From: a virus
IMG/VR virus record: IMGVR_UViG_3300042379_000232
Coordinates: 1-32,577 of that record
Reading direction: 5' to 3' (one strand)
Length of the DNA stretch: 32,577 bases
Within the stretch, counting starts at the first letter, position 1, and every line of letters starts with the position of its first letter. This document shows, one piece after another, positions 4,451 to 28,328 of the stretch. The translations under genes were made by a program, and so were the position numbers. The notes beneath the pieces were generated by a model. That model had not been told where the DNA came from. It searched no databases and worked only from the letters and a program-made list of their open reading frames with translations.

Positions 4451-7186
4451 TTACTTATTAGGTTTTTTCTGATCAAATCTATTTTTGTTTTCTCTTGCTA
4501 TTGCAAATTCAGTTTGCTTATTTTGAGAATCAACTAATAGTTTTTCTCTTTCAAGATCTAATTTCTGTTGACCAAGATCTGCTTTATTTGTTTCCTTCTC
4601 ACGATTAAAGTTCATAGTATCAAGATATTGCTCAGATTGCTTAACTTCTTTTAAAGTATCAGTAAAGTCTGACTGCATGTTCTGGTTAATATCTTGTTGA
4701 GCACCATAACCGGCAGCTTTAATTTCTGCTTCAAGTAATCTTGATCTACGGTCTTTCTCTTTTTCTCTAGACTCATGATCCATTTCCATTTGCTTTTCAG
4801 CTTTCTTAGCTTGAATCTCAGCTTCCTGCGCTTGTTGTGCAGCTTGCATGTCTTGATTTCTTTTTTCTTCAGCTTTATCTTCTATTGCTTTTAATGCAAC
4901 ATTGATTGTTCCTAAAGAATCTGATTGCATAAGTTTTCCTAAATCATATACTGAAGCACCCGTAGTATTATTATTCATAAAGACTTGCTTCAATTGGTCA
5001 AGCAAACTTCTATTGTTAGCATTGGTTTGGCAGAATACATTTAAGTCAACTAATAACAAGTCTGTACCATTAATCTCAAAGTTAGTTCTTTCATCAGCAG
5101 AGATCATTCCTTGCAATCTAACAGATGATTTATTTGAATGGTAGTATTGTGCTAAGTCAGTTCTCATTGCATGCACACGAGGCATTAAATGATCACTGTG
5201 CTGAATAAAGTATGTTTCTGTTTGAGCATAAGAACCACTTACTGCTTGTTCTACTCCAGTTGCTGTATTTGTCTGGCCAAGTTGTTGTCCCATACGTTGA
5301 GGATTTAATCCTACAACTTCCATACATTGTTGCTTAAAGTAGTTAGCTAACTGTATTCTTGACATTAATCTACTTGATTGCTCTAAGTTTAATACTTGAT
5401 AATGTTGGAAATTAGTTGCACTTTCTGTGTTAGCTATAGAAGGATCTAATGGCAACATACTAAAATCTTTCATTGCCATATATGCTTTAGAAAGATTATT
5501 CTTACCCCAGTCTTCACCCATTGAGTGTTTTGGAATTGCATTCTGGTCAAGTACAATTACAGAACCTAGTTCATCCACTAATATATCTGCAATTTGATTG
5601 TTACAAATATTGTATCCAATTTGAGCCGGCTTCATTAAATCTACCAAAGAAGTTGACTTTGTGTTTCTATCTGAAAAGACTTTTCCTTCAATTGGCAATT
5701 TAGCACCATACATTGTTTTGTCTCCTCTAAATTGAAACTTTAATGCTCCCGGTTTCTTTCTATCAATACCAAGATAAATTGGATCAAAATCTGAATCTGT
5801 TTCTGTATTAAAGATTGTTCTATTGTTTCCAATCTTGACACCACCCCATGTTTGATTAATCCAAAACCAATCTATATGGTCACCAAATATTAAGTTGTCA
5901 CCGGTTTCTTTTTTCTCAAATACTTTATTGTAAACCGGTTTTGTAGTAACAACATAATTTTCATCAATTATTTCTGTTATTACTGCACCATTCTCATCTA
6001 TCTTAGTTAACTGTCCAACACGTCTTTGTGTCTTCCAATAAGATGTTGATACTCTCAATAACTCAACTGTATGTAAGTTACCAGCATGTTCACTTTGTCC
6101 AACAATGTATGAAACAACATCATGTGGATCATGAGCATTTTCAACAAAAGATAAGTGTCGTTTCATATCAACACCAGTTCTTCTGTTAGAATCTAAACTT
6201 TCATCTGTATTGTATAATGAACCATCATTAGGAATACCATCTACCATGTATCTTGCTGATCTTGCAGGATGCAAAAGTTCAAGTGATTCTAATTGCTCTG
6301 CTGTCATTAAGTAACCATACTTATCAACTACATCAGATATAGTTAACATGTCAACCCAACCGGCCCAATTGCCTTGTGAGATATAGTGTACATTTGGTGA
6401 CTTATGATAAAAAGTTAAAGCTGGATTTAACAAATCAATATTATAATCATCTTCTAACATTTTGAAATGCCAAAACTCGCTATCAGTTATAAGGGAATCT
6501 CTAAAAGCAAGTTCTTCCATTTCATCCATGCGAAATCTATTGACATCAATTGCATGTTGTTTAACTGCCCATTTCTCTGCCAGAGTTTGATATTTTTTAG
6601 AATAAAATTCTTCAATCTCAGGTAGTTTCTTTAATGCTTCAGGATCAAGTTGTTGCTGTGCTTCTTCTGAATTAGGATCCATTCCCATTTCAACCATCTT
6701 AGCAACTAACTTTTGTTGTGCATATTCTAAAAGAACCTTACTAATATCTTCAGTTTTCTTTTCCATGATTTCATTATAAGAATACTCATCAATTGCTCTA
6801 TAGTCAATCTTGGTATTTCTTTTAGCAAACTCAGAAACCATGGTATTAATAATGTTTGGAATTATTGGATAGAACTTTAACTCCAATGCTTCGTTTTGGC
6901 CTTCTGTTAAAACATCAACCATTTCCATCATTTCATTTTCAACAGTAGGAATGTAATCTGTTTTATCAATAGTTCCTTTTGCAAGTTTATAATTTTTCAT
7001 TATCCGTCTTGCCTTTGACATGATTTGCTTTATGCCTTGCCACTCTAACCAATCAAGGTTATGCTTAGACCACTCATCATCTTTTTCATCAGCTGGGATA
7101 AATTGGATTGGTTGAGTAAAAACACCAAATCTATTCTTTTTGGTTTTTTTACCTTTCTTAAAATCCATTGCATTTAAAACTTCCAT
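4451..7186 (-). CDS. Portal protein (crAss-like), 911 aa
   Basis: Inferred dodecameric portal at the head vertex through which DNA is packaged and ejected. Size, position directly after the large terminase, and the general pattern of large crAss-like portals support this. The N-terminus is basic and Lys-rich; a helical charged region spans about 60-215; the centre (about 230-700) carries the mixed wing/stem region; a long Gln/Lys/Glu-rich coiled coil fills about 780-895 (QAAQQAQEAEIQAKKAEKQ), fitting an extended barrel or tail-tube contact. The ATG at 7186 is 16 bases after the terminase stop in the same operon; a second ATG at codon 7 is an alternative start. Confidence 0.85.
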   Translation of the reverse strand: MEVLNAMDFKKGKKTKKNRFGVFTQPIQFIPADEKDDEWSKHNLDWLEWQGIKQIMSKARRIMKNYKLAKGTIDKTDYIPTVENEMMEMVDVLTEGQNEALELKFYPIIPNIINTMVSEFAKRNTKIDYRAIDEYSYNEIMEKKTEDISKVLLEYAQQKLVAKMVEMGMDPNSEEAQQQLDPEALKKLPEIEEFYSKKYQTLAEKWAVKQHAIDVNRFRMDEMEELAFRDSLITDSEFWHFKMLEDDYNIDLLNPALTFYHKSPNVHYISQGNWAGWVDMLTISDVVDKYGYLMTAEQLESLELLHPARSARYMVDGIPNDGSLYNTDESLDSNRRTGVDMKRHLSFVENAHDPHDVVSYIVGQSEHAGNLHTVELLRVSTSYWKTQRRVGQLTKIDENGAVITEIIDENYVVTTKPVYNKVFEKKETGDNLIFGDHIDWFWINQTWGGVKIGNNRTIFNTETDSDFDPIYLGIDRKKPGALKFQFRGDKTMYGAKLPIEGKVFSDRNTKSTSLVDLMKPAQIGYNICNNQIADILVDELGSVIVLDQNAIPKHSMGEDWGKNNLSKAYMAMKDFSMLPLDPSIANTESATNFQHYQVLNLEQSSRLMSRIQLANYFKQQCMEVVGLNPQRMGQQLGQTNTATGVEQAVSGSYAQTETYFIQHSDHLMPRVHAMRTDLAQYYHSNKSSVRLQGMISADERTNFEINGTDLLLVDLNVFCQTNANNRSLLDQLKQVFMNNNTTGASVYDLGKLMQSDSLGTINVALKAIEDKAEEKRNQDMQAAQQAQEAEIQAKKAEKQMEMDHESREKEKDRRSRLLEAEIKAAGYGAQQDINQNMQSDFTDTLKEVKQSEQYLDTMNFNREKETNKADLGQQKLDLEREKLLVDSQNKQTEFAIARENKNRFDQKKPNK

Positions 7187-7201
7187 ATCTTTGTTTTATT
7201 A

Positions 7202-9427
7202 TTATCTTAAATTTTTAAAAGGATTTCTAGTTTTCTTCATACCTGAAGAACTATCATTTGATCCCATGTGCCTAAACATACTCTTACTTAATTTATACAA
7301 ATTTTCTGACTTATCCAAATGTTCTTCGTTATCATATTCAACTCTTTTCTTTAATCCTCTACTTGCTTCTTGTATTCTTACAAAAGTAATTAATGCCCCA
7401 AGAGAAATTAATCTATCCACATTGACACCAGGTTGATAATGTTCCATCTCAATCATACACATGTAATCAGGTATTCTTGATATACCATAATGTTTTTTAT
7501 AGACTTTACCCTCATCATCTGTCTCTTCATCCAATTCCTCTCTCAAGTACTCAATTAGATAACTAAGCATAACTGTTTTAAAGATTGTAGAAACATTCCT
7601 CCAACCATATTGTTGAAATTGTGTTTTGGACATCTGTACTTCTTTTGAAAATACAATTTGAGAAGATGGCACTAAATACTTTTGCTTGCGTTTAAACTGC
7701 ATGTATTGTATAAACAAAGGCACGTTATTCTCCACAACAGTCCATGCTTGATACCATTCAATGATTAACTCAAGTCGTTCATGTGTTTTATTAATATCAT
7801 CAAATCTACCACACCATGCTGCTACAACTTTATCTCCTTCAATATAAGTTTCTACATCTCCATTATCACGCACTCTTTGAACTTGCACAGGATTTTTGTA
7901 AACATGTATAGAACATAATGAATCTGAAGTTACAGTTTTACCCTCTGAAACTGGATCGACAGATGCATAGTATGTAGTACAAAAATCTTTCTCATCATCT
8001 GGCTCTTCCCATATCTGTATTGCACCTGACTTATCTTCAGCTGTTTTTTCTGTAGGAAAGATTAGAATTGGTTTCTTGGTTGTTGGTGTAGCAATTATTG
8101 CACCGGTGTTATCATAAGCTAAGTTATAACAACTATAAGGATAGTTTCCTTCTTCAATATCGCGCTTGTGTGACTTAACTAACTCTAATGGAAATAAACT
8201 TTCACCTCTAAAGGCAAATGCTTCTTCCATGTTAGTAGGTCTTTGTGAACAACGAATTTGATATGTTTCAGGATCTAAATCTTTCTTCCATTGTTTTTTT
8301 AATTCTGTTAGTGCTTCTAATGCTTCATCTACAAGTGAATTACCATGAGCATCAATATATGGAGGCATTGACCATTGCTCAGGAATAAATAAACCTGTAT
8401 TTAATACAGTTCCTTTAGAGTCAGACCATTTATTAGGAACTTGGTAAAATCCATTTCCCTTTGCTTTGTACATGTATTTACGCAAAGGTTCACATTGTTT
8501 AAGATCTCCTACTGTTCCTGAAGCTATAAAGTAACCTGTTGTAATTTCACCTGCTTGTAGTGCAGGCAACATAAACTCAAATGTTTTATGCATTGATTTT
8601 GCAATCCCTGCCTCTTCATAAAAGAACAAAGTACATAAACCCCCTACACCGGCAGTATCAGACTGTTCAAAAGATAATGCTTGTAATACACCTTTTCTAC
8701 CTCTTTCAGTTTTTCTGCCGTTCTCAACATACTCAATTTTCTGTTGCCATTCACCAACACCACTTGGATTCATTGGTCTATACCATGCAGTATTTTGATT
8801 TAGAAAGTTTTTGTATTCATTGATCATTTTCCATGTACCATTCACTCCAGTAACATAAGCACTAAGTGATGAACCAATCTTTAATACTGGTCCATATTCA
8901 AACCATAAAACATTTACAAGTTTAGCAGCATGAAAGAAGGATGATCCAAACTGACGCTTTTTTAATATTACACCATGTTCATAATTCAACTCTCCCAGCA
9001 TTTCATATAATGACATGTGGTATTGTGCATCATGTATATCAGGAAAGTCTGTAGTCTTCTTTACTTTATCATTAATAGGTAAGAAGTTAATCCAAAAATA
9101 ATAATCTCTAGGCAAATAGTATTTCTTTTCTCCCTTCCAGAATAATACTCCCTTTCTAGATTTTAATTTTTGATCATCCCAATATGTAATAAAGTCTTTT
9201 GTGTTTTCAGAAGCATCACAAAAATATCCAACTTTTTTAAATTTTAATCCTTGCTTTTGAAATTCTAAAACAATATCATCAAATTCATATTTGCCTGGTT
9301 CTTTAAAGTAATCTTTTTCTAAAGTTTCAAACATGTCCTTACGGGTGTCAAAACTATGAGTTGTCCAAGTACCATTATCCCATAAAGGAATATCTTTGTA
9401 AATATCTCCTAACTTATCATTAATCAT
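7202..9427 (-). CDS. terL: Terminase large subunit (packaging ATPase and nuclease), 741 aa
   Basis: Motor that pumps DNA into the prohead and cuts the concatemer. A deviant Walker A motif appears as KKRQFGSSF at 156-164 (lysine before the glycine, none after it). Walker B is likely TLFFYEEAG at 266-274 with the catalytic Glu in the EE pair. A coupling motif ASGT sits near 302-305. RPTNMEEAF (396-404) is a common landmark before the nuclease domain, whose first acidic residue is likely D491 in YASVDPVSEG. The C-terminal nuclease continues to about residue 690. The gene overlaps the upstream 170-aa gene by 8 bases, and the portal follows after 15 bases. Confidence 0.9.
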   Translation of the reverse strand: MINDKLGDIYKDIPLWDNGTWTTHSFDTRKDMFETLEKDYFKEPGKYEFDDIVLEFQKQGLKFKKVGYFCDASENTKDFITYWDDQKLKSRKGVLFWKGEKKYYLPRDYYFWINFLPINDKVKKTTDFPDIHDAQYHMSLYEMLGELNYEHGVILKKRQFGSSFFHAAKLVNVLWFEYGPVLKIGSSLSAYVTGVNGTWKMINEYKNFLNQNTAWYRPMNPSGVGEWQQKIEYVENGRKTERGRKGVLQALSFEQSDTAGVGGLCTLFFYEEAGIAKSMHKTFEFMLPALQAGEITTGYFIASGTVGDLKQCEPLRKYMYKAKGNGFYQVPNKWSDSKGTVLNTGLFIPEQWSMPPYIDAHGNSLVDEALEALTELKKQWKKDLDPETYQIRCSQRPTNMEEAFAFRGESLFPLELVKSHKRDIEEGNYPYSCYNLAYDNTGAIIATPTTKKPILIFPTEKTAEDKSGAIQIWEEPDDEKDFCTTYYASVDPVSEGKTVTSDSLCSIHVYKNPVQVQRVRDNGDVETYIEGDKVVAAWCGRFDDINKTHERLELIIEWYQAWTVVENNVPLFIQYMQFKRKQKYLVPSSQIVFSKEVQMSKTQFQQYGWRNVSTIFKTVMLSYLIEYLREELDEETDDEGKVYKKHYGISRIPDYMCMIEMEHYQPGVNVDRLISLGALITFVRIQEASRGLKKRVEYDNEEHLDKSENLYKLSKSMFRHMGSNDSSSGMKKTRNPFKNLR

Positions 9428-24778: not shown

Positions 24779-24835
24779 CTCGAATTTATTTTGATATTAT
24801 ATTAATATACGAAATTTAATTATATTAAACAAAAA

Positions 24836-24860
24836 AACCCTGCTATATTTTAACAGGGTT
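24836..24860 (-). terminator. Terminator between the GroES-like gene and the fibre block
   Basis: Stem AACCCTG / CAGGGTT with an 11-nt AT-rich loop, followed on the minus strand by a run of T. Transcripts of the middle operon should end here. Confidence 0.8.
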
Positions 24861-24869
24861 TTAGTTTAT

Positions 24870-27067: not shown

Positions 27068-27307
27068 TTAATTTTTGTGACGCGCGCGCTTGTTATAATT
27101 TGTTGTGGCCAAACTCTTACTCTGTGGCTGAGTACCTTCTGATTTAAGATCACTTTTTCTTTGCTGGCTTTTGACAAGTCCAAGAAATTTTGTTGAAACA
27201 AATCTATGATAAACTGGAGTGAATTGATCCATTCCAATTCCAATACAGAAATAAAACCTAAAAATTCTAACCTTGCATCCATGTATAACTTTATAAAATA
27301 TTTTCAT
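27068..27307 (-). CDS. Unknown small basic protein, 79 aa
   Basis: Chosen over an overlapping 86-codon frame because its ATG overlaps the upstream stop as ATGA, like other genes of this operon, and because its stop precedes the next ATG cleanly. The N-terminal half is aromatic and hydrophobic (VRIFRFYFCIGIGM) and the C-terminal half is basic and hydrophilic, ending KRARHKN. The end is encoded by a (CG)4 tract at 27081-27089, unusual in this AT-rich genome. Function not known. Confidence 0.5.
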   Translation of the reverse strand: MKIFYKVIHGCKVRIFRFYFCIGIGMDQFTPVYHRFVSTKFLGLVKSQQRKSDLKSEGTQPQSKSLATTNYNKRARHKN

Positions 27308-27645
27308 CTCAATTCATTTATGCGTCTATTCAAAAGCATGTTAACTAGATGACGTGTTTCATCATCTCTTGAATTTAACATTTTTAAAAATTTATTATAC
27401 TCCATTTCTGTTATCCATTCATCATCATATGCTTGATGCAATTTTATAGATAACGCATCTCCAGTTGATCTTGCCATTTTAAAAAACAATTCATCTGATA
27501 AAGGATTTCTTATTTCAAAATCAGATTCGGAGTTTGTTATTTTTTCTAACTCCCCATTTCTAAAAAGCCATTGATCATTCATGTTGTCAAGAGTCATTAA
27601 AATATCCCCTTGCTCAAATGCTATTATTGGTAATCCTTGTATCAT
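27304..27645 (-). CDS. Unknown protein, 113 aa
   Basis: Second gene of the operon, coupled to the RepL-like gene by ATGA at 27642-27645. The N-terminal third is beta-like (GLPIIAFEQGDILMTLD); the rest is helical with a DDETRHLVNMLLNRRI motif near the end that resembles the C-terminal part of the 99-aa protein at 10758 (SRDEEVRNTGIIFLNQK). The two may share a small helical domain. No named family. Confidence 0.65.
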   Translation of the reverse strand: MIQGLPIIAFEQGDILMTLDNMNDQWLFRNGELEKITNSESDFEIRNPLSDELFFKMARSTGDALSIKLHQAYDDEWITEMEYNKFLKMLNSRDDETRHLVNMLLNRRINELR

Positions 27646-28136
27646 AATCCGCGTTTAGTTCCTAGTTCATCAAAATATGTCAAACAATTCTTGTCAATTG
27701 TCTTTCTCTTTCTAGCTAAGTTAGGATTAAGCATGATATACTTAAACTCCTTGCCATCCTTTACCGTATGAATATAACTAATAACACTCTTACGGTACAA
27801 TCTCTTCATAAAATCAGCATACTTATTCCTTGTATACTGTAATTGCTCCATTAAACTAGCATCTGTATGAGGAATCTTTCTATTGTGATACAAAATATTA
27901 TAAACACCGCTAGTCATATCAGCCATCTTCAAAATCCTACCATAATCTACAGGACTAAAGTTCTGTAAGATATACTGCAAGGCCAAACTATCAATAATAA
28001 CATACTCTTCGCTATGTACCAACACCAAATCCTTATCAACTATGTTCACTGTTGTAGATGCCGGCAATATCTCACCAGTAGATTCATCTACAACACCTTT
28101 CTCTAGCTTAACCTTTCTAACAATTGGTCTTATCAT
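27642..28136 (-). CDS. RepL-like winged-helix replication/regulatory protein, 164 aa
   Basis: Resembles plasmid RepL-type initiators: an early DESTGEIL (18-25), a helical region around YILQNFSPVDYGRILKMADM (55-74), a likely recognition helix at about 93-118 and a C-terminal wing ending in the family-like YIMLNPNLARKRK (133-145). Proteins with this fold bind DNA at origins or promoters. The start is the ATG at 28136; an upstream TTG lies within the promoter element. The gene leads the operon, and its promoter carries two TGCACC palindromes, so autoregulation or origin binding is plausible. Whether it starts replication cannot be told from sequence. Confidence 0.7.
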   Translation of the reverse strand: MIRPIVRKVKLEKGVVDESTGEILPASTTVNIVDKDLVLVHSEEYVIIDSLALQYILQNFSPVDYGRILKMADMTSGVYNILYHNRKIPHTDASLMEQLQYTRNKYADFMKRLYRKSVISYIHTVKDGKEFKYIMLNPNLARKRKTIDKNCLTYFDELGTKRGL

Positions 28137-28140
28137 GACA

Positions 28141-28172
28141 CAAAGATACAATAATTTCTAACATTGCACCAA
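28141..28172 (-). promoter_or_regulatory. Promoter of the RepL-like operon, probably leaderless
   Basis: Minus-strand TATCTTTG (28141-28148) fits TAnnTTTG, with a -33-type TTG at 28170-28172, 21 bases further upstream, within the usual range. Only four bases separate the -7 element from the ATG at 28136, so the transcript probably starts at or next to the start codon (leaderless mRNA). Confidence 0.6.
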
Positions 28173-28182
28173 TAAAGGTGCA
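28165..28182. promoter_or_regulatory. Operator palindrome O1: TGCACC-N6-GGTGCA
   Basis: Perfect 6+6 inverted repeat with a 6-bp AT-rich spacer. The -33 element of the RepL-like promoter lies inside it, so a bound dimer would block polymerase. Paired with an identical-arm palindrome 43 bp away. Confidence 0.7.
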
Positions 28183-28207
28183 TATTATATACATTTTGTA
28201 GTAAAAT

Positions 28208-28225
28208 TGCACCTATTTGGGTGCA
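28208..28225. promoter_or_regulatory. Operator palindrome O2: TGCACC-N6-GGTGCA
   Basis: Second perfect copy of the O1 arms with a different spacer. Centre-to-centre distance to O1 is 43 bp, close to four helical turns, so two dimers would sit on the same DNA face and could loop or cooperate. On the minus strand it is followed by ATTTT, so a weak hairpin terminator is an alternative reading. Confidence 0.65.
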
Positions 28226-28295
28226 GGCTATCTTCTGTAATCCCCACTATGACTCATTCTACAAAAAACCCCTATATTAATATATTTACCAAACA

Positions 28296-28328
28296 AAAAT
28301 AGCCCCCACAAAGATACATGCGAGGGCT
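28296..28328 (-). terminator. Terminator after the 45-aa gene
   Basis: Minus-strand stem of about 10 pairs (AGCCCTCGCA / TGTGGGGGCT, three G-U pairs) with an 8-nt loop, followed by ATTTTTGTTT. It separates the 45-aa gene from the RepL-like operon. The stretch 28329-28385 also holds a short TGAATG/CATTCA hairpin. Confidence 0.7.

Follow-up and report, generated by a model that had tools for sequence, protein, structure and literature searches.

The window analysed here is the whole of an IMG/VR contig (G000, 32577 bp), which we assign to a crAss-like phage because it encodes a Crassvirus major capsid protein (PF23898, E 7.5e-27) as well as TerL and portal proteins, identified by PHROG matches. 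The region considered lies upstream of a minus-strand gene for a 164-aa protein, and its features, in the direction of transcription, are as follows.

28301..28328, minus strand: intrinsic-terminator-like hairpin between the promoter and the upstream 45-aa gene (hairpin scoring)
28272..28287, minus strand: AT-rich element AAATATATTAATATAG, upstream of the distal palindrome and separated from it by 46 bp, conserved in relatives
28208..28225, minus strand: distal palindrome (site 1), TGCACC-CAAATA-GGTGCA, perfect, kept in all relatives
28165..28182, minus strand: proximal palindrome (site 2), TGCACC-TTTATT-GGTGCA, perfect, overlapping the -33 region
28141..28148, minus strand: -7 box TATCTTTG, an exact match to the Bacteroidetes sigma-ABfr consensus TAnnTTTG (consensus from PMC7366714)
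28134..28136, minus strand: ATG start codon, 4 nt past the -7 box; the alignment of relatives begins at this Met
27642..28136, minus strand: 164-aa ORF, called "RepL-like" in the initial annotation, the proposed autoregulator; HTH then beta-hairpin predicted
27304..27645, minus strand: 113-aa ORF overlapping the stop of the 164-aa gene, same operon; homologue in only two of eight large relatives
24834..24862, minus strand: intrinsic-terminator-like hairpin with a 12-bp stem and T-run (hairpin scoring)

As the operon that begins with the 164-aa gene probably terminates at the hairpin at 24862-24834, the structural genes beyond 24834 are not implied to be controlled from this promoter, and the hairpin at 28328-28301 is predicted to insulate the promoter from the 45-aa gene. 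The same operon contains a GIY-YIG endonuclease of the SegE type (PF19835; 26645-27061, minus strand), kept in most relatives.

Each palindrome is an 18-bp dyad with half-site centres 12 bp apart and an A+T-rich spacer. The initial annotation described two perfect palindromes with identical arms 43 bp apart, found nowhere else in the window; both are indeed present, 43 bp or some four helical turns from start to start, and TGCACC-N6-GGTGCA has no further match in the window with two or fewer mismatches (0.46 expected). Among the 17 perfect 6-6-6 palindromes of the window, the TGCACC arm is the only recurring one, and two 6-6-6 palindromes sharing one arm were obtained in none of 4000 dinucleotide shuffles of the 250 bp upstream of the 164-aa gene. 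The pair is not a chance occurrence, since all 17 relatives carry two or three sites at the same promoter.

These relatives are the 17 IMG/VR contigs encoding a homologue of the 164-aa protein, on which protein-sequence searches converged. Four of them (L037, L043, L059, L061) were first recovered by the protein alone, and hence the conservation of the sites is independent of palindrome searching. A search of these phages for the palindromes found sites in the same promoter in 17 out of 17 contigs, leaving the annotated operator pair uncontradicted: 16 contigs have at least two sites with no more than one mismatch, and in the remaining contig, L037, three sites have one or two mismatches each. 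Across the full length of contigs as large as 125 kb, sites with 0-1 mismatches are confined to this promoter, with the exception of one 1-mismatch copy in G005. The arms are almost invariant among the relatives, and the six-base spacer consists largely of A/T.

The geometry is conserved as well. In the two-site members (the window, L003-L011, L027, L043, L059, L061) the spacing is 42-43 bp, which is held among proteins down to 45% identity with that of the window; the three-site members have 54 + 32-34 bp (L018, L021, L028) or 54 + 23 bp (L037), most spacings being near whole helical turns. The fixed spacing, combined with poor conservation of the intervening DNA (~17-67% identity between lineages), suggests same-face cooperative binding at the paired sites. 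A half-site lies midway between the two palindromes in L059 and L061.

Gene rearrangements show what the sites are linked to. In L003 and L021, related 74/75-aa ORFs (L003:5773-5997, L021:772-999) begin at the usual ATG position behind the probably leaderless promoter and are followed by the 164-aa homologue; the palindromes remain with the promoter, to which they therefore belong. In G011 (L043), an HK97-type siphovirus without the crAss capsid, the 164-aa gene is the only one shared with the window among 12 tested, and twin sites 42 bp apart are nevertheless present; thus, palindromes and gene move together. G011 also encodes a true RepL (PF05732), distinct from the 164-aa homologue, at 11.9 kb and without palindromes nearby.

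Some matches were set aside: twin palindromes in viral contigs L013, L014, L016, L022, L025, and L026 look like unrelated repeats, and the near-match TACAGAAGATAGGGTGCA in L006/L007 is an overlap artefact with three mismatches. The crAss001 inverted repeats in 5600-9400 include no similar identical pair, and INPHARED searches with the region, the 164-aa protein, two of its relatives, and the 45-aa protein yielded no matches. In bacterial chromosomes, TGCACC-N6-GGTGCA pairs 33 bp apart lie before or near AAA_14 (and DUF4143-like) ATPase genes in Bacteroidia (L065, L066, L070, L088; 2-3 perfect copies per genome), and in Clostridia (L067, L071, L081, L091, and others) TGCACCTATATAGGTGCA and a second TGCACC-N6-GGTGCA ~57-60 bp off lie beside small HTH_3-type regulators. 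Because the half-site also occurs near these unrelated genes, TGCACC-N6-GGTGCA alone is not diagnostic.

The -7 box had been placed four bases before the ATG, and this is borne out (TATCTTTG at 28148-28141 and ATG at 28136-28134, minus strand). Of 15 distinct upstream regions, 14 contain a TAnnTTTG box past the proximal site (L027 has no exact match), and the gap between TTTG and ATG is 3-4 nt in 11 of the 15 (the exceptions are L027, L043, L059, and L061). Since the box ends 3-4 nt before the ATG in most regions, the mRNA of the 164-aa gene is probably leaderless or near-leaderless; the layout thus favours the earlier suggestion of a leaderless mRNA, in the softer form of leaderless or nearly so. 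Leaderless-type promoters, with TAnnTTTG adjoining ATG, are rare in these phage genomes, and in B. thetaiotaomicron only ~3.7% of 5' UTRs have a length below 10 nt (PMC7366714). The -33 element assigned to the proximal palindrome did not hold up: the window has only TTGG there, and inspection of the aligned sequences revealed no conserved TTTG in the relatives. The centre of the proximal site is at about -36 from the inferred transcript start in the window and at about -36 to -40 across relatives; in L027, both palindromes are flanked by a weak promoter match upstream and the ATG downstream. L059 and L061 have a conserved short ORF (~14 codons), possibly a leader peptide, between the promoter and the 164-aa homologue, overlapping the next ORF (ATGA).

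The 164-aa protein is the sole one of 12 tested window genes present in every relative examined. It shares with its homologues an invariant helix, RNK..FMK.L, and the residues of the putative recognition helix vary as little as the half-sites do; compared with L006, 86 of 113 substitutions in the gene fall at third codon positions. AlphaFold models from 10 and from 13 sequences both have an HTH followed by a beta-hairpin, in the winged-helix order, with mean pLDDT 46-49, and a Foldseek search with these low-confidence models gave winged-helix matches, none of them significant. The winged-helix assignment, tentative at this confidence, comes from motif reading and these models. In contrast, the RepL label is unsupported: the protein has no Pfam, PHROG, or NCBIfam match, Pfam RepL (PF05732) did not pass the cut-off in the window protein or nine relatives, and a whole-record profile search found RepL only in G011, in a gene other than the 164-aa homologue. 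Profile-profile comparison with RepL was not significant either (hhalign with plasmid RepL, E 0.088 over 16 columns, probability 0.6%; with the winged-helix part alone, E 0.09), and given that these alignments are shallow, the 164-aa protein may be distantly related to RepL. A profile search of 295 Bacteroidia genomes, run without a positive control, found no chromosomal homologue.

Since the other tested genes are excluded and the protein has an HTH-like motif, the regulator of the twin sites is most likely the product of the adjacent 164-aa gene. Hence, of the proposal that a RepL-like protein is the repressor, the protein is retained and the name is dropped. The 45-aa protein is an unlikely regulator, given that it has no homologue in five of eight large palindrome-bearing contigs (two of those five are incomplete on that side).

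We give a probability of about 0.6 to an autoregulatory circuit in which the two palindromes serve as the operator through which the 164-aa protein acts on its own promoter. A winged-helix dimer of the protein would occupy each dyad, the dimers at the two (or three) sites would touch one another, and the dimer at the proximal site would cover the -33 region and block host RNA polymerase, so that the protein would limit its own synthesis and that of the ~eight-gene operon headed by its gene. The conserved, helically phased twin operator at the promoter is what was expected from the initial annotation, which had proposed a dimeric repressor with cooperative binding; the binding itself is deduced from this arrangement.

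Judging from site positions, repression by the 164-aa protein is more likely than activation, as the sites of L027, lying between the weak promoter match and the ATG, suit it better. As an activator, the protein would recruit polymerase from a position upstream of a promoter whose -33 box is poor, providing positive feedback or an early-to-late switch. Class II activators bind close to -36 to -40, and the proximal-site centres are compatible with such a role; moreover, the -33 TTTG is not conserved, and in crAss-like members the gene opens, or nearly opens, the strand block of structural genes. However, the L027 sites appear downstream of the promoter, and the terminator-like hairpin at 24862-24834 precedes the structural genes, so we consider activation improbable. 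Binding by a host-encoded or another phage protein is suggested by the use of the half-site in unrelated systems, namely, the TGCACC-N6-GGTGCA pairs in Bacteroidia and Clostridia chromosomes, but four Bacteroidia genomes with only 2-3 perfect copies each do not indicate a broad host regulon, the spacing differs, and no other tested neighbour gene is found in all site-bearing phages; this makes such a binder very improbable. Hardly any weight falls on RNA hairpins, a terminator or an attenuator: the palindromes do score as weak terminator-like hairpins, but the sites are upstream of the promoter box in all relatives but L027, an Rfam search gave no match to them, and a conserved helical-turn spacing is characteristic of DNA.

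The autoregulatory reading leaves one regularity aside. In 13 of 15 upstream regions, 46-47 bp separate the end of the AT-rich TAATATAG from the distal palindrome, the exceptions being L027 (69 bp) and L043 (degenerate); recomputed from coordinates, the distance is 46 bp in the window and 47 bp in both L010 and L018, where spurious upstream matches with two or three mismatches, present in all three, were not taken as the distal site. This distance is constant, whereas the centre of the distal site varies among lineages from ~80 to 127 bp from the ATG. Eight contigs contain a single exact copy of the 15-mer AATATANTAATATAG and G014 contains two, and variants are present in other contigs; the form AAATATANTAATATAG is seen in the window (28272-28287, minus strand) and in upstream regions of relatives. 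The AT-rich element and the distal palindrome thus look like a rigid core, resembling, by analogy, an initiator site plus an unwinding element, and simple promoter occlusion accounts poorly for the fixed 46-47 bp.

Accordingly, the region could be a replication origin or a part of it, with the 164-aa protein as the initiator: bound to the palindromes, it would open TAATATAG, and self-repression would be a by-product; many plasmid and phage initiators repress their own promoters. Besides the fixed distance, kept while the distance from site to ATG varies, this is favoured by the AT-rich element being single-copy or nearly so per contig, by the location of the region at or near a switch of gene orientation, and by the cumulative GC-skew minimum at 0.8 kb in G010 and 6.6 kb in G001. 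On the other hand, the protein matches no RepL or other initiator family, the gene and sites of G011 are at neither an orientation switch nor a skew minimum and the AT-rich element is degenerate there, the local skew minimum of G315 is ~16 kb away, there are just two or three sites and no direct-repeat iterons, and gene orientation also shapes GC skew. We regard an origin as unlikely, although far from negligible. Bolder still, and somewhat more doubtful, is a combination of both functions, in which the AT-rich element, the distal palindrome, and the phased proximal sites would form one nucleoprotein core linking the start of replication with the autoregulated, leaderless expression of a novel initiator/regulator family, the module being exchanged between Crassvirales and a siphovirus.

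The exact replication mode of Crassvirales has been described as unknown (PMC10136315), and the fixed AT-rich element provides a concrete candidate origin in this group. A single-copy, sharply defined site with a likely cognate protein can also be tested in vitro without a cultured phage. Our search of the literature on Crassvirales found no earlier description of a transcription operator, and a search for the half-site and operator found nothing relevant; autoregulatory phage operators are known as a kind, and the Crassvirales example appears new.

Phage lambda OR/OL have multiple dyads over a promoter adjoining the repressor gene, and the sites described here resemble operators of this type in having two or three identical dyads with near whole-turn spacing at a promoter beside a regulator gene, but differ in the protein sequence and probably the fold, in the wider spacing (42 bp), and in that no divergent cro-like partner gene was identified. 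With plasmid and phage initiator regions (RepL, PF05732, and iteron initiators) they share a small putative winged-helix protein, repeated sites, and an AT-rich element at a fixed distance; unlike in those systems, there is no RepL profile match, the sites are palindromes rather than direct iterons, and origin activity is only a candidate function. Finally, compared with sigma-ABfr promoters (TAnnTTTG at -7, TTTG at -33), the promoter has no conserved -33 box and probably starts transcription at or adjoining the ATG, but retains the -7 box, an exact match in the window as well as in 14 of 15 regions.
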